This document shows positions 15,228-21,230 of a stretch of DNA of 64,000 bases, piece after piece. Each line of letters begins with the position of its first letter. Position 1 is the stretch's first letter. The notes under the pieces are model-generated. The model saw only the letters and a program-made list of their open reading frames with translations, did not search any database and was not told where the DNA came from. This DNA comes from Paenibacillus albicereus (GTDB taxonomy: Bacteria; Bacillota; Bacilli; Paenibacillales; Paenibacillaceae), in the NCBI RefSeq assembly GCF_012676905.1, contig NZ_CP051428.1, positions 3,992,001-4,056,000 of the forward strand, written 5' to 3'. The translations under genes and the position numbers were made by a program.

Positions 15228-15542
15228 ATGGGTTGGCTGTGCGTCTTGACCGCGGCGTTCTGCGAGGTAGCGGGCGTCGTCGGCTTGAATCGCTTCACCG
15301 AGCGCAAGACGCTGCGGAACGCGCTCTGGTTCATCGGCGGCTTCGCCGCCTCGTTCGGCTTGCTGTACGCTTCGTTCCAGTACTTGCAGCTCAGCGTCGC
15401 CTACACGGTATGGATCGGGCTCGGCACCTCGCTGGCCGTCATCGTCAACATGCTGTTATTCGGCGAATCCCGCAGCCCGCTGCGGCTGTTCAGCCTGGCA
15501 CTCATCATCGTCGGTGTGACGGGGCTGAAGGCCGTGTCGTAA
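15228..15542 (+). CDS. SMR-family efflux subunit, YkkD-like
   Basis: 104 residues, four TM helices, with the conserved Glu in AAFCEVAGVVGLN (residue 13) and the conserved YTVWIGLGTS segment in helix 3. It is the second half of the heterodimeric pump with the preceding gene; AGAGAGGAGG lies before its ATG. No terminator is visible after it. Confidence 0.9.
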   Translation: MGWLCVLTAAFCEVAGVVGLNRFTERKTLRNALWFIGGFAASFGLLYASFQYLQLSVAYTVWIGLGTSLAVIVNMLLFGESRSPLRLFSLALIIVGVTGLKAVS

Positions 15543-15548
15543 TTAAAC

Positions 15549-15577
15549 TTGATATTATATCCAATTTTGGATATTGA
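15549..15577 (+). promoter_or_regulatory. Candidate promoter with overlapping inverted repeat
   Basis: TTGATA (15549-15554), 17 nt, TATTGA (15572-15577) is a weak promoter, and an inverted repeat ATATCC-6 nt-GGATAT (15557-15574) fills its spacer. It lies between the SMR genes and the CPBP protease gene and could be a repressor site for the latter. Confidence 0.35.
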
Positions 15578-15678
15578 ACATTACCTCCCTTTGCTTTACA
15601 CTCAACTCATTGTGCAGTGACGTTGACCAGGGAGGTTTTTTTGTTGAAGATAAGAATGATGTCGCGAGGCCCGAAAAA

Positions 15679-16353
15679 ATGCTTCCTCTAGCAGCTGAAC
15701 GCTTACAAACGATTCCCTCATTGAGCCGCAGCGAGTTATTGCGCTTCCTCGGCATCTGGCTGGGGATGCAGGTGCTGCTGGTGGGCACAGCCTTGATCTT
15801 GCGGGGAGAAGGACCTTCCTCTCTTTTTTGGAGTTCAGCCGCCATGCTGCTCTCCTATGTCGTTGCCTTCGCCTGCTCCCGAACCGCTCTGGCGGCCGCT
15901 CTTGACCGACTGAACGTGCCGGCGCTGCGGCGTCCTGCCTCGTGGGGGCTGTTTGCCGCCGCGTTCCTCATCCTACTCTCAGCAGCTCTAGTGTTCAGCG
16001 GTCTGAGCTGGGACGATCCAGCTGCCAACCAGGAGCTTTACGCCAACCGGTTGGACATCCGTACGGGCTGGCTGTATGCGGCAAGCCTGCTCCTGCTCAC
16101 GGTCCTGCTGCCGATCGGCGAGGAGCTCGTCTTTCGCGGCCTGCTCCTCCGATTTTTCGAGTCACGATGGGGCTGGCTGCGCGGCGCGCTTTTGACTTCA
16201 GTTCTATTCGGATTCCTTCATACCGACCTGTTCTTCACGATGGCCCTTTTCGGATTCGTGTTCAGCCTGCTTCAACGATACGCCGGCTCCATCCTGTTTG
16301 CGATCCTGCTTCACATCTCGTGGAATACGTTCAGCCTGCTGCTGCTGGCTTGA
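15679..16353 (+). CDS. CPBP-family intramembrane metalloprotease
   Basis: About 224 residues with several TM helices. The CPBP/Abi signature is complete: EELVFRG (EExxxR) near residue 153, FGFLH about 33 residues later, and HISWN close to the C-terminus. Members cleave membrane proteins or act in bacteriocin self-immunity. The start is uncertain: ATG 15679 has GAGG 6 nt upstream. A much stronger GGGAGG at 15631-15636 instead faces a short frame at TTG 15645 that ends after 15 codons, so either a leader peptide or a frameshift exists. Confidence 0.8.
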   Translation: MLPLAAERLQTIPSLSRSELLRFLGIWLGMQVLLVGTALILRGEGPSSLFWSSAAMLLSYVVAFACSRTALAAALDRLNVPALRRPASWGLFAAAFLILLSAALVFSGLSWDDPAANQELYANRLDIRTGWLYAASLLLLTVLLPIGEELVFRGLLLRFFESRWGWLRGALLTSVLFGFLHTDLFFTMALFGFVFSLLQRYAGSILFAILLHISWNTFSLLLLA

Positions 16354-16423
16354 CCCATTGACGAGCCTGGATATGGCGTATACGATGAGGATAAATATCC
16401 CATTCCAGGAAAGGCTGGCTATC

Positions 16424-16687
16424 ATGAAACGAACGAGCATCCTGCTGCTTGCCGCCGTCATCGGCGCGGCATCCGCGCTGCCTGCCGGCGCGACTGCCGC
16501 CGAGAAGGCGCAGACGTACAAAAACTGCACGGCTCTCAACAAGGATTATCCGGGAGGGGTCGCCATTTCGTCCTCCACCAAGAACAAGGGCGGAAAGACC
16601 AAGCATAAGCCTCACGCGTCCAAAGCCCTCTACGAAGCCAACAAAAAAAGCGATCGCGACAAGGACGGCATCGCTTGCGAGAAATGA
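16424..16687 (+). CDS. Secreted excalibur calcium-binding domain protein
   Basis: 87 residues: a Sec signal peptide (residues 1-26, cleavage likely near GATAAEK), then an excalibur domain with YKNCTALNKDYPGGV and the calcium loop DRDKDGIACE at the C-terminus. The two Cys probably form a disulfide. The function of stand-alone excalibur proteins is unknown; extracellular calcium binding is the usual proposal. It lies just before the dead mobile elements. Confidence 0.85.
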   Translation: MKRTSILLLAAVIGAASALPAGATAAEKAQTYKNCTALNKDYPGGVAISSSTKNKGGKTKHKPHASKALYEANKKSDRDKDGIACEK

Positions 16688-16718
16688 TTCGTCGCTTCTC
16701 CCTCTCTGGTCTTACCCC

Positions 16719-17135
16719 TGTCAAGTAGACAATAAAAAGAGTTTATTCATGCGGCGATCGCGTTTCGGTATTCTACCGGAGAGCGGTCGCCGAGTTTTTT
16801 CTGGAAGCGCTAATATCGGTAACAAGCTTTGTAAAAGGGGCATCGGCATGAAAGTCCCGCTTCAAGGCGTGGCCAAAGGGAACCGACGGTTTGCGCCCTG
16901 CATTCGGGCGCTTCTTTCGGATGACGGTCGAATCCCCAGCTCCCGCATAAGCCTCCGCACCTTCTTGTGGTTCACGCCCAGTCCCTCCTTCTTGAGGGCA
17001 GTGGTCATGCGAATATAGCCGTAGAAGGGGCGAAGACGATGAATCGCCAGCAAATGCTCCTTGATATCTGCATCGCAATTCTTTCGCTGTTTACCGGCAC
17101 TTAAAGAGACCTTCCACTTGTAAAATCCGGCACGC
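16719..17135 (-). mobile_element. Remnant of an IS3-family element (orfB with deletion and frameshifts)
   Basis: Minus-strand fragments recall the IS3/IS150 orfB transposase: AGFYKWK, IHRLRPFYGYIR and NHKKVRRLMRELGI (17128-16900), then after a frame change LKRDFHADAPFTKLVTDI (to about 16805), and after a large deletion the usual C-terminus KKLGDRSPVEYRNAIAA ending at 16747. Nearly all of the catalytic DDE domain is missing. TGTCAAGTAGACAAT at 16719 looks like the IS right end. The element is inactive. It is truncated on the other side where the group II intron remnant begins. Confidence 0.8.
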
Positions 17136-17143
17136 CATTGTGA

Positions 17144-17389
17144 ACGATACTTGACGTCTGGATCCGCCGAAGGCTGCGCCTGTGCTTCTGGAAACAATGG
17201 AAACGGGTGCGCACCCGAATCCGCGAATTCCGTGCGCTCGACATGCCGGAATGGGCCCGCTTCGTCATGACCAACACCAGACGAGGTCCGCGGGAGATAT
17301 CCCGAAACACAAACAACGCCCTTACGACTTCCTACTGGGAAGCGAAAGGGCTGAGGAGCTTGCTTGCTCGCTATGTGGAGCTTGGTTAA
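17144..17389 (+). pseudogene. C-terminal remnant of group II intron reverse transcriptase/maturase
   Basis: About 80 codons ending in TAA at 17387 encode the characteristic end of bacterial group II intron proteins: WIRRRLRLCFWKQWKR, then a conserved Arg-rich linker, and YWEAKGLRSLLARY. These belong to the maturase domain X and its tail; the reverse transcriptase domain is entirely absent, replaced by the IS3 remnant. An in-frame stop lies at 17141. Domains V and VI of the intron RNA follow directly, which confirms the identity. Confidence 0.85.
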
Positions 17390-17398
17390 CCTTTTGGA

Positions 17399-17468
17399 AA
17401 CGCCGGATGTGGACCCGCATGTACGGTGGTGTGAGAGGACGGGGGCTAGCCGCCCCCTCCTACTCGAC
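17399..17468 (+). ncRNA. Group II intron domains V and VI (3' end remnant)
   Basis: Domain V: GCCGGATGTGG-ACC-CGCATGTACGG folds into the short catalytic hairpin, with CGC at the place of the AGC/CGC triad. Domain VI: GGGGGCTAGCCGCCCCC hairpin followed by TCCTACTCGAC, giving a branch-point region and a 3' end in AC at 17468. No intron 5' half was found upstream, so splicing or retrohoming is not possible. Confidence 0.75.
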
Positions 17469-17517
17469 TGCTTGCGGGCGAGGGCGTTCTGTTCAAATGA
17501 TTAACTGATTTGATCAG

Positions 17518-18477
17518 CTAGGCATGTACATCTTGTTTTCGGAAAAGGACAAGGAGCAGAGTAAGGCAGACGGCATAGGTTGCCGTTAGGATCAAGAGGG
17601 ATTCGAAGAAAGAACCGGAAGCATGCTTCCAGTCGGCAGTCAGATGGTCCAGGAAGGCGAAGTGGCGGGTCGGAAACATGCTCAAGAGAGGAATGCGATT
17701 GGAATAACCACTGAGCATGAACTCCGCTACAAACAGCACGGCAACAGAGATCACCACTGACATCGACACCGAATGCCGAAGAAGGTAAGAGACAAGGAGT
17801 ATGATGCTCGCACATGCTGCTGTCACAATCATCTGGCCTGCCAGTGCGATCAGGATGAAGAGGTGGATCGGGATGACAGCAGACTGGTTGGCTCCATACA
17901 CTATGACCTGAGAAGACGCCCCTTCATTCCATCCTCCATCAGCCAGACCGATACCGAAAACGACAGCAATATAGATAAAAAGAAAGAATTGAGCCATCAG
18001 CCACAGAGCCGTCCATTTGCCTATAGCGAGCTTTGTTCGACCGATAGGGCTTAAAAGAGGGCTCTTGATGGTCTTGGAGGCAAACTCCTTTGAAAAGAGA
18101 TCCGAACCGAGGAACAACATCAGTAAAGGAAGCGCATATCGTAAAAATCCCCCATGCAGTTCCATGGATACCCAGTGTATCGCGCCACCTGCCTCGGGAT
18201 TTGTCTGTGCCTGCAATTGAAGCTCCATGAAATGGGCTTTCCGCTCGAGCAGGACTCGCTCCTCTCCCTTTGCCTCAAGGCTTGCCATTTTGATCCTCTC
18301 CAACGTTTCCAGATGAGGTACGGTCCAGTCGGAAGGGGTTGGGGTGTTCTCCGGTCTTGCAGTCTCCTGGAGAATGACGAGTCCGATAAGCATAGCCGTG
18401 AATAGGCAGACAAGAACCATGAGGCGCCCTTTCAGCTTGACGAACTCATTGAAAACAGCTCCGCGAAACATAGCCAT
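17518..18477 (-). CDS. ABC-2 type permease, LanE/G-like subunit 2
   Basis: 319 residues: one N-terminal TM helix, an extracytoplasmic region of about 75 residues (35-110), then five TM helices. The LGSDLFSKEFASKTIKSPLLSP segment is the cytoplasmic coupling region of ABC-2 permeases. It is the last gene of a permease-ATPase-permease operon, overlapping the ATPase stop in a TAATG junction. This layout matches lantibiotic/bacteriocin immunity exporters (LanFEG) and BcrAB-type efflux; the decayed bacteriocin exporter nearby favours immunity. Confidence 0.85.
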   Translation of the reverse strand: MAMFRGAVFNEFVKLKGRLMVLVCLFTAMLIGLVILQETARPENTPTPSDWTVPHLETLERIKMASLEAKGEERVLLERKAHFMELQLQAQTNPEAGGAIHWVSMELHGGFLRYALPLLMLFLGSDLFSKEFASKTIKSPLLSPIGRTKLAIGKWTALWLMAQFFLFIYIAVVFGIGLADGGWNEGASSQVIVYGANQSAVIPIHLFILIALAGQMIVTAACASIILLVSYLLRHSVSMSVVISVAVLFVAEFMLSGYSNRIPLLSMFPTRHFAFLDHLTADWKHASGSFFESLLILTATYAVCLTLLLVLFRKQDVHA

Positions 18478-19412
18478 TAGCAGGTTCCTTTCCCTGTCGT
18501 CGAGGAAAGGAAGAACTGCTCCAGCGTCTGCTCTGCCGTCTCGACCCGATAGATCGGCACTCCTTGGACGTACAGGTTGTTCACGGTGCCAGGCAAGTCT
18601 TCCTCCATGAGGCGGATCAGGATGCGATCCCCTGCCAATTCCGGCTGAAGTCCCATCTCGCGAAGCAGCCCAAGGGCAGAAGTCCGTTGCTCGGGCTTGC
18701 AGAACAAGGAGACGCCGACCTCCTCCTCTTCATGCCGCAAAAGATTTTTGGAGGCTTGAATTCGCCCGTTTTCAATAATGAGGACTCGGGTACACAGCTG
18801 TTCGATCTCGCTCAGGAGATGGGAGGAGATGAAGACGGCGACACCGGTCTGCCGGCACAACTCCCGGATGACTTCTCTCATCTCAATGATTCCTGCAGGA
18901 TCCAGTCCATTTGTCGGTTCGTCCAACACCAGAAGGCTGGGGGAAGCCAGCAGCGCTTGGGCGATCGCCAGGCGTTGCTTCATGCCAAGCGAATATCGCT
19001 TTACCTTTTCTCCGATACGAGTCTGCAGATGGACGAGTGCTATGCAGGCCTCCATCCGTTCCTTGGATATGGGCTTACCCGCAATGCGTGCCGCCTGCAT
19101 GAGATTCTCCCATCCGCTCAGATGCTCATACAGCGCCGGTTGCTCGACGATGGCGCCGATATGGCTCATGGCCTGCGAGAACTGGGTGCGGATATCCGAT
19201 CCACGAATCAGGATCTGACCGGAATTCGGTCGAATCAAGCCTGTAATCATTCGGATCGTTGTCGTTTTACCGGTGCCGTTCGGACCGAGGAAGCCCACCA
19301 CCTCGCCTTCTTGTATGGTGAAAGAGATGTCTTCAATGACTTGTCGACCTCCAAGCTTTTTACGCACACGATCCACTTGAAGTACAGGCGCGCCTTGTTT
19401 CGGAATGCTCAT
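18477..19412 (-). CDS. ABC transporter ATP-binding protein, LanF/BcrA-like
   Basis: 311 residues: Walker A GPNGTGKTT near 45, signature YSLGMKQR near 142, Walker B LLVLDEP near 162, H-loop ISSHLL near 195, and a C-terminal extension of about 90 residues usual in BcrA/LanF ATPases. ATG 19412 has AGGAG about 11 nt upstream; a much longer in-frame reading to 20225 crosses the permease gene on the same strand and is not real. It would power both adjacent permeases. Confidence 0.93.
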   Translation of the reverse strand: MSIPKQGAPVLQVDRVRKKLGGRQVIEDISFTIQEGEVVGFLGPNGTGKTTTIRMITGLIRPNSGQILIRGSDIRTQFSQAMSHIGAIVEQPALYEHLSGWENLMQAARIAGKPISKERMEACIALVHLQTRIGEKVKRYSLGMKQRLAIAQALLASPSLLVLDEPTNGLDPAGIIEMREVIRELCRQTGVAVFISSHLLSEIEQLCTRVLIIENGRIQASKNLLRHEEEEVGVSLFCKPEQRTSALGLLREMGLQPELAGDRILIRLMEEDLPGTVNNLYVQGVPIYRVETAEQTLEQFFLSSTTGKGTC

Positions 19413-19426
19413 CCAAGGATTCTCTC

Positions 19427-20257
19427 CTAACGGTTGATGTCTTGGTAGCGGAAGATGGTATTGACTGCTGCATACATGCATGACCCCGTCAAGGCAAGGA
19501 TGCCGATAGACCTCCATAAGTCTGATGGCGCGTACGCAGAAGAGCTCGCCATTCCAGGCAGGTCCAGATGATTCAGGAACAAGTATTCCAGGGGGGGGAG
19601 GGAGGTCTGCAGCAGCAAGAGTGTCTTTCCGAATAAAAAGGCCACCATCATGGTCGCCATGGCGATTGCATTGGAGCGGATGAAGAAGGACATGAACAGA
19701 ATGAATGAAGCGGTGAACATAATGACGATGATATGCAGCAGGAACTTGAACAGCAAGAAAAGCCACAGCGGCACAGTCCCCACCGCGAGCGGGACGGGGA
19801 GGTCCCAGTCGTGCAACCCATGGGATGACTGCAGCAGGAAGCCGCTTCCATACGCGATCGCGAGCAGCCCGACCGACAATAGGATCAGTGTCAGCCACTT
19901 TGCCAGCATATAGATCGGTCGTCCCACCGGGCGGAGAAGCGTCGCCTTTATCGTCCGATTGTTGAATTCCGACGACCATGAATCTCCTCCGATGATGACC
20001 ATGAGCAGGGGAAAGATGACGACAACGAAGACTCCCTGCATGCTCGCTGCGAGTCTTCCGAATGCCCCTTGTGCATCGGCAGCAGTCGAATTCGTTTGGG
20101 AAGGCTCGGATAGTTCGGGCAAAAAAGGGATGATGTCCTGAAGGGCCTTGGCGGCGAGTAGAAGCAGGACGAGCGAACAGAGGCAGGAGGCGATGCTGAT
20201 CCACCTCGTTCTGACTTTCATCCATTCGTTGACCATGGCCCCTAGCAGCATAGACAA
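19427..20257 (-). CDS. ABC-2 type permease, LanE/G-like subunit 1
   Basis: About 276 residues with an N-terminal TM helix, a Ser/Thr-rich extracytoplasmic loop and five further helices. The coupling motif GGDSWSSEFNNRTIKATLLRP parallels that of the downstream permease, so the two are paralogous halves. Start choice: an ATG at 20275 overlaps the ribosome binding site AAGGAGG itself, so the TTG at 20257 (8 nt after it) or the ATG at 20251 is the real start. It is the first gene of the exporter operon, with a 49-residue membrane peptide just upstream. Confidence 0.85.
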   Translation of the reverse strand: MSMLLGAMVNEWMKVRTRWISIASCLCSLVLLLLAAKALQDIIPFLPELSEPSQTNSTAADAQGAFGRLAASMQGVFVVVIFPLLMVIIGGDSWSSEFNNRTIKATLLRPVGRPIYMLAKWLTLILLSVGLLAIAYGSGFLLQSSHGLHDWDLPVPLAVGTVPLWLFLLFKFLLHIIVIMFTASFILFMSFFIRSNAIAMATMMVAFLFGKTLLLLQTSLPPLEYLFLNHLDLPGMASSSAYAPSDLWRSIGILALTGSCMYAAVNTIFRYQDINR

Positions 20258-20298
20258 GCGTTGAACCTCCTTCATAAACGAGTGTGTCGGAGTTAGAG

Positions 20299-20448
20299 CT
20301 AATTTCTTTTTTTTATTTGGTAGCGAATGATTAGCAAGAAAGCAAGTAAGGCAACGCAGCTATACCTAATATAGCTATTATCGTCTAAGTATAATTTGGC
20401 AAAAAAATATCCAACTACAGTCGCTATTATGGCGGAATTAACTAACAT
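20299..20448 (-). CDS. Small two-TM peptide upstream of the exporter operon
   Basis: 49 residues from ATG 20448: two hydrophobic helices (SAIIATVVGYFFAKLYL, then VALLAFLLIIRY) and a basic end QIKKRN. A ribosome binding site AGGAGGTGA, a perfect match to the 16S tail, lies 20 nt before this ATG; an in-frame GTG (20469) overlaps it and an ATC (20460) has ideal spacing, so the true start is unclear. Size, hydrophobicity, AT-rich composition and position suggest a bacteriocin immunity peptide or an exporter accessory protein. No family was recognised. Confidence 0.5.
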   Translation of the reverse strand: MLVNSAIIATVVGYFFAKLYLDDNSYIRYSCVALLAFLLIIRYQIKKRN

Positions 20449-20612
20449 GAATTTATTGATGTTACTCACCTCCTCTCAACAGCGACGTTGGCGATGCTAG
20501 TTGGATAGTGACGAAGGGTATGCGTCTTGACATCAGTTATGCGCTTATAGCAAAAATGAAGGTTTTGGACTTGAAATCTCTTCTAGTGGCGTTGTAGTCA
20601 GGGGTAATTGTT

Positions 20613-20792
20613 CTATACGCAGCAGTTAATCATTCCAAAAGCATTGGTCCCTTGCTTATCAGTACCTGCAAATTCTCTTCTTTAAGAAATAGGCGCTTTA
20701 AGTTCATTATGCCGTGCAATTGTTGCCAAGCATGCAGCTCCACCGTCTTTAATATCCTGTTGATGAATAGCTATATATCGTTGTATGAACAC
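20613..20792 (-). pseudogene. Decayed C39-peptidase bacteriocin exporter (N-terminal remnant)
   Basis: Reading from GTG 20792 (AAGGAG 7 nt upstream) gives RYIAIHQQDIKDGGAACL, ATIARH, then APIS, a stop (20684-20682), and in the same frame REFAGTDKQGTNAFGMI before another stop (20615). This is the N-terminal peptidase C39 domain of exporters that cleave double-glycine leaders (LanT/LagD type). The catalytic Cys of QxDxxDCGxxC is Gly here, two stops interrupt the frame, and the catalytic His, the TM domain and the ATPase are all missing. It is clearly dead. Confidence 0.82.
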
Positions 20793-20848
20793 CGCCCTTC
20801 TCCTTGTCCCTAGCAAACAACCTTAATAGTACACAATAATACAAATTT

Positions 20849-20876
20849 ATACAATATAAATTTCTTGATATTGTAT
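20849..20876 (+). promoter_or_regulatory. Inverted repeat in the promoter region of the 61-residue peptide gene
   Basis: ATACAATAT-10 nt-ATATTGTAT is a perfect 9-bp inverted repeat 65 nt before the start codon. It overlaps a possible -35 TTGATA (20865-20870); no clear -10 was found. It could be an operator for a peptide-induced or repressor-type regulator, but none is in the window. Confidence 0.4.
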
Positions 20877-20941
20877 TAATTTTAATTATTAGTTTATAGT
20901 TAGAGTTAGGTTGACCAGTTCATATATAAGGAGAAGATTCT

Positions 20942-21127
20942 ATGACGGATACATTTTTAAATCTTTCCAGTGACGAATTGATGGGGTTCTCTTACTATGC
21001 ATTTACTGGCGGTTTCAGAGCTTCGGAAGCAGCAGCCGGTAGCGCAATCGGAGGTCCAGTCGGAGGCGTGGTTGGAGCAAGAGCAGGTGTTGTTCTTGGA
21101 GGAATAGCAGGAGCCCCTACTCCATAG
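20942..21127 (+). CDS. Putative double-glycine-leader bacteriocin-like peptide
   Basis: 61 residues, starting 7 nt after AAGGAGA. Residues 1-24 look like a C39-type leader: LSSDEL, then Leu, Tyr and Phe at -12, -7 and -4 relative to a Gly-Gly at 23-24, though Glu is not at -8. The remaining 37 residues are rich in Gly/Ala/Val with overlapping GxxxG motifs (GSAIGG, GGVVG, GVVLGG) as in class IIb two-peptide bacteriocins, and end in PTP. It is divergent from a dead C39 exporter and a LanFEG-like transporter. Function is inferred, not shown. Confidence 0.6.
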   Translation: MTDTFLNLSSDELMGFSYYAFTGGFRASEAAAGSAIGGPVGGVVGARAGVVLGGIAGAPTP

Positions 21128-21164
21128 GTATTAGTTTGTTATTAGCACATCATTGTCATGCGAC

Positions 21165-21187
21165 CGGACTCGAGGGGCTCGAGTCCG
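21165..21187. terminator. Strong hairpin after the peptide gene
   Basis: A perfect 10-bp stem CGGACTCGAG / CTCGAGTCCG with a GGG loop lies 38 nt after the peptide stop. It lacks a T-run, so it may be an RNA-stabilising or weak terminator structure. Confidence 0.45.
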
Positions 21188-21230
21188 TCACCTAAGGTAA
21201 GGCGCTGGCCAAGCAATGAGGGAATCGAAC

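Follow-up and report, generated by a model that had tools for sequence, protein, structure and literature searches.

A 61-codon open reading frame in Paenibacillus albicereus raises the question of whether it encodes a working orphan bacteriocin. A sequence-only reading had put it forward as a candidate, with a double-glycine leader that would be cut to leave a 37-residue mature product. We examined this frame within the 64,000-nucleotide stretch of DNA that contains it (the window), which comes from a complete 5.17-Mb genome, and the lesions described below were read from this one genome of the species. The frame starts with ATG, is preceded by an AAGGAGA ribosome binding site, and reads MTDTFLNLSSDELMGFSYYAFTGGFRASEAAAGSAIGGPVGGVVGARAGVVLGGIAGAPTP. 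The surrounding GC content is 39% over positions 20280 to 21160, against a window average of 63%. The open reading frame, its ribosome binding site, its AT-rich setting, and its glycine-rich sequence are all present as had been described. We found that the peptide belongs, in degraded form, to a class II bacteriocin family that has no name, and that its gene lies in an island undergoing decay. Comparison with its relatives makes it highly probable that what remains is a pseudogene-like relic of the structural gene for a class II bacteriocin, probably one of the two-peptide kind. Its parts are as follows.

20942-21127, plus strand: class II (GG-leader) bacteriocin precursor remnant, 61 codons (homologues in genomes G002 and G400; protein alignment)

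20954-20980, plus strand: N-terminal part of the leader, FLNLSSDEL, in which F5, L8, and L13 correspond to G002 leader positions -15, -12, and -7 (protein and tblastn alignments)

20981-20992, plus strand: deletion scar, codons MGFS (DNA and protein alignments against G002)

20993-21013, plus strand: YYAFTGG, a conserved internal motif of the mature peptide, invariant in the window, G002, and G400

21014-21115, plus strand: glycine-zipper core, in which FRAS and SEAA carry Arg and Glu instead of conserved Gly

21113-21127, plus strand: frame-shifted tail, APTP and stop (DNA alignment and three-frame translation)

The sequence-only reading knew of no named family for the peptide, and no curated profile covers it: there was no significant match in the profile libraries and no match to PF10439, TIGR01847, or TIGR03949 up to E = 1. 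A search of 394 genomes of the family gave its best match to the peptide in G002 (E 2e-8, 66% over 44 residues). Using the G002 precursor as the query, we found a further relative in G400, which belongs to another family of the same order (E 2e-18, 69%). A chance glycine-rich frame without bacteriocin ancestry would be expected to lack a family-library match, and glycine zippers do give many weak hits, but the local alignment scores of the window peptide were 157 with G002 and 118 with G400, compared with maxima of 93 and 71 in 2,000 composition-preserving shuffles. Furthermore, the FLxLSxxEL leader block and the YYAFTGG block occur in order, and the alignment extends to the DNA, where 21 of the 39 differences fall at third codon positions. 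We consider a chance origin extremely improbable. For the core shared with G002, the estimates of dN and dS are about 0.26 and 1.0. These figures fit purifying selection on the gene through most of its history and mostly reflect the time before the gene broke.

The two relatives show the form from which the window copy departs. The G002 precursor has the leader MTAVGFYDLSKEELLEVDGG followed by a mature part starting GFWSSVAYYAFTGGMGALGAAAGAAIGG, and the G400 precursor has a leader ending GFVELTKEELLINIDGG followed by a mature part starting LSLKDTLNTVAYYAFTGGMGALGAAVGAAIG. Their leaders end canonically, in ELLEVDGG and ELLINIDGG, and AYYAFTGG lies inside the mature peptide. Intact relatives have precursors of 79 to 92 residues. 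Against PF10439, these two direct homologues scored below the cut-off (E 6e-4 for G002 and 6e-3 for G400), each with a GG leader, whereas a GG-leader peptide of G236 exceeded it (30.7 versus 27.1 bits). Distant GG peptides of similar general build were found in G236, G361, G777, and G128. Because G002 and G400 were the only two close relatives found, the ancestral form rests on them together with these more distant GG peptides. Seven mixed peptides, when aligned, diverged too much for the alignment to be of use in scanning. No relatives turned up when viral contigs and the GTDB genome collection were scanned for patterns, none was found on plasmids, and a literature search for the string YYAFTGG found no paper containing it. 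Hits L005, L008, L019, and L021, together with most class-level hits, were set aside because they were stretches of low-complexity glycine sequence, antisense matches, or proteins of another kind.

Next to these relatives, the window copy is damaged at three places. Between the leader anchors and YYAFTGG, it has four codons where G002 has thirteen, a net loss of 27 nucleotides that keeps the frame. The lost region includes the -4 residue and the Gly-Gly, which are part of VDGG in G002, so that F, L, and L remain at the ancestral positions -15, -12, and -7 while -4 and GG are gone. Peptidase-containing ABC transporters recognize leader positions -4, -7, -12, and -15 in addition to GG (PMC7018657). 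In the core, G002 and G400 share an identical MGALGAA block; the window has FRASEAA there, so that Arg and Glu stand in place of two Gly. Near the 3' end, the window copy has two bases more than either relative and then runs into APTP and a stop (tail GAPTP), where the relatives' conserved tail continues AYVGD..WDA.H. The resemblance of GAPTP to GALAPTP in the second GG peptide of G002 raised the possibility of a gene fusion, which we rejected because the alignment at the DNA level is to the first peptide gene, in a shifted frame. Any order placed on these lesions would be an inference of ours.

These lesions bear directly on the proposal of an intact orphan bacteriocin, which an exporter encoded elsewhere would cut after TGG to 37 residues. 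The open frame and good ribosome binding site fit that proposal, as do the hydrophobic residues L, Y, and F that had been reported, and are found, at -12, -7, and -4 before TGG. However, position -15 counted from the same point is Ser, and hydrophobic residues at -4, -7, and -12 arise in 9% of shuffles. The Gly-Gly that had been taken for the leader end belongs to the internal motif YYAFTGG, which is invariant in the mature peptides of both relatives; thus, the proposed 37-residue product matches no ancestral product. The true leader end is deleted, and the C terminus of the proposed product is frame-shifted. A leader and Gly-Gly that are conserved, as the sequence-only reading had asked, do exist in the relatives but have been lost from the window copy. 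Its double-glycine ancestry stands, and a working orphan bacteriocin is unsupported. With the exporter and the neighbors considered below, an intact orphan is very unlikely. A deletion that moves a mature-peptide Gly-Gly next to a leader can mimic a new bacteriocin.

The decayed C39 exporter said to face the peptide gene was confirmed by profile search, tblastn, and translation.

20619-20816, minus strand: C39 peptidase/ABC exporter stump (PF03412, 27.8 bits; one internal TAA; tblastn)

The stump spans approximately the first 57 of about 740 codons and is 61% identical to the G236 exporter by tblastn. In C39 peptidases, catalysis depends on the Cys of the DCG motif, and the stump reads DGGAAC in place of DCGAAC. 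In a PF03412 search of the whole 5.17-Mb genome, a search that was positive in 8 of 14 control genomes, the stump was the only match over the cut-off. No other C39 export route was found in the genome, and neither the locus nor the genome holds a dedicated working C39 exporter, which counts against the suggestion that one elsewhere could serve the peptide.

In the intact relatives, a C39 exporter would cut the precursor after VDGG or IDGG and release a glycine-zipper peptide; this peptide and the second GG peptide together would insert themselves into target membranes, and immunity would come from a small membrane protein whose gene lies alongside. We infer this activity of the intact relatives. 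The window copy has lost the segment holding the cleavage site, its tail is shifted, and the sole exporter is a stump without its catalytic Cys. If translated, the product should therefore remain intracellular and unprocessed, and it would most likely lack activity.

Translation of the shortened peptide is possible, given the open frame, the strong ribosome binding site, and the in-frame deletion. The same features, together with retention of most of the glycine-zipper core, would be expected if the peptide, having lost its leader end and exporter, had been kept unexported for a new role inside the cell or at the membrane. Yet two zipper glycines are now charged residues, a simple scan found no promoter-like site on the gene's strand, and the neighboring exporter gene has decayed. 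Moreover, one genome of the genus carries the peptide and the seven others searched do not. A new role is accordingly very improbable, and a remnant that probably lacks a present function remains our preferred reading.

The relatives' loci show what would have surrounded such a gene. In G002, the peptide gene is followed by an 88-codon frame resembling a membrane protein, a second GG peptide, a C39 exporter that is intact, and a protein of the HlyD type. The second GG peptide of G002 exceeds the TIGR03949 class IIb cut-off (24.2 versus 21.5 bits). G400 carries a counterpart of the 88-codon frame in the same position (50% identity, E 4e-29), and the place and build of this frame suggest an immunity role, so peptide and frame seem to form a conserved peptide-immunity pair in the two genomes. 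A second GG peptide lies beside the first in G002, G236, and G361, and all three genomes have an intact C39 exporter; homologues next to intact C39 exporters, which the sequence-only reading had proposed to look for, were thus found, and further GG peptides accompany them. The intact family members lie at L010 9929-10683 (G002) and L017 73-738 (G400). Paired GG peptides, a related small immunity-like frame, and intact C39 exporters lie at L011 7347-15442 (G236) and L012 9358-16308 (G361), and both of these loci have a protein of unknown function of 158 to 179 residues upstream of the peptides. These intact G002 and G400 relatives are better leads than the window copy: they point to a class II bacteriocin family, as yet without a name, in which a AYYAFTGGMGALGAA core is conserved and an immunity-like gene is linked, and which spans two different families of one order.

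By tblastn, the window holds no trace of the second GG peptide or of the 88-codon immunity-like frame, and the missing partner and immunity-like gene also argue against an intact orphan. The window does encode another small membrane protein near the stump.

20299-20469, minus strand: small membrane-protein open reading frame, 56 codons, strong ribosome binding site, possible immunity-like gene (no significant family)

This frame has one weak relative and almost none otherwise, and no alignment was found between it and the relatives' immunity-like frames. It is perhaps an immunity gene.

The LanFEG-like transporter of the sequence-only reading corresponds to an apparently intact ABC set of two permeases and an ATPase.

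19427-20275, minus strand: ABC-2 permease, LanFEG-like, intact (PF12679, E 1e-12; PF12730, 4.5e-11)

18477-19358, minus strand: ATPase, LanFEG-like, intact (PF00005, 2.7e-33; TIGR03740, 1.6e-62, below cut-off)

17518-18477, minus strand: second ABC-2 permease, LanFEG-like (PF12679, 5.7e-16)

Both permeases are present, but the ATPase scored 211 bits against a TIGR03740 cut-off of 309.75, so the set resembles LanFEG without reaching its profile threshold. The permease at 19427-20275 has no close relative in the genus and hardly any in the family. We recognized no lantibiotic gene beside the transporter (17518-20275). The island may be what remains after the ability to make a bacteriocin was lost, with a transporter that possibly served self-protection still in place.

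The peptide gene, exporter stump, and transporter lie in one segment of distinct composition.

16417-21229: low-GC segment of 4.8 kb, 51.5% GC versus 62.8% for the window (blastn synteny, GC content, and junction)

The nearest species, G292, is without this whole segment. Its flanking DNA is 85 to 89% identical by blastn on both sides, and it joins window positions 16416 and 21230 with approximately 28 bases between them. The simplest reading is horizontal arrival followed by decay; loss of the island from other species, instead of a gain here, is a less simple one. Within the segment there is an IS3-type transposase fragment (HTH_21) at 16865-17197 on the minus strand (PF13276, E 4e-14), and no Rfam families or tRNA were found there. 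An Rce1-like CAAX protease gene at 15539-16355 on the plus strand adjoins the island and is also missing in G292.

Among known systems, the closest type is the class II GG-leader bacteriocins of PF10439 (Bacteriocin_IIc), notably the two-peptide class IIb (SpbMN/Blp; lactobin A/cerein 7B, TIGR03949). Hallmarks of class IIb are tandem peptides, GxxxG motifs, an immunity gene, and a dedicated transporter (PMC5093712). The relatives share the leader type, the glycine-zipper mature part with GxxxG motifs, and the tandem GG peptides, and their loci hold a small membrane immunity-like protein, a C39 exporter, and an HlyD-type accessory protein. The window copy differs from this type in having no -4 residue, no Gly-Gly, a shifted tail, no partner, no immunity-like counterpart, no working exporter, and no match to PF10439 or TIGR01847. 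In pneumococcal strains whose blp locus has a disrupted blpA exporter gene, the precursors are intact and ComAB can substitute for the exporter (PMC4739728). In the window, by comparison, the precursor itself is damaged and the genome has no second C39 exporter. The parallel with blp is a partial one: in both, mutation has broken the exporter gene of a bacteriocin locus.
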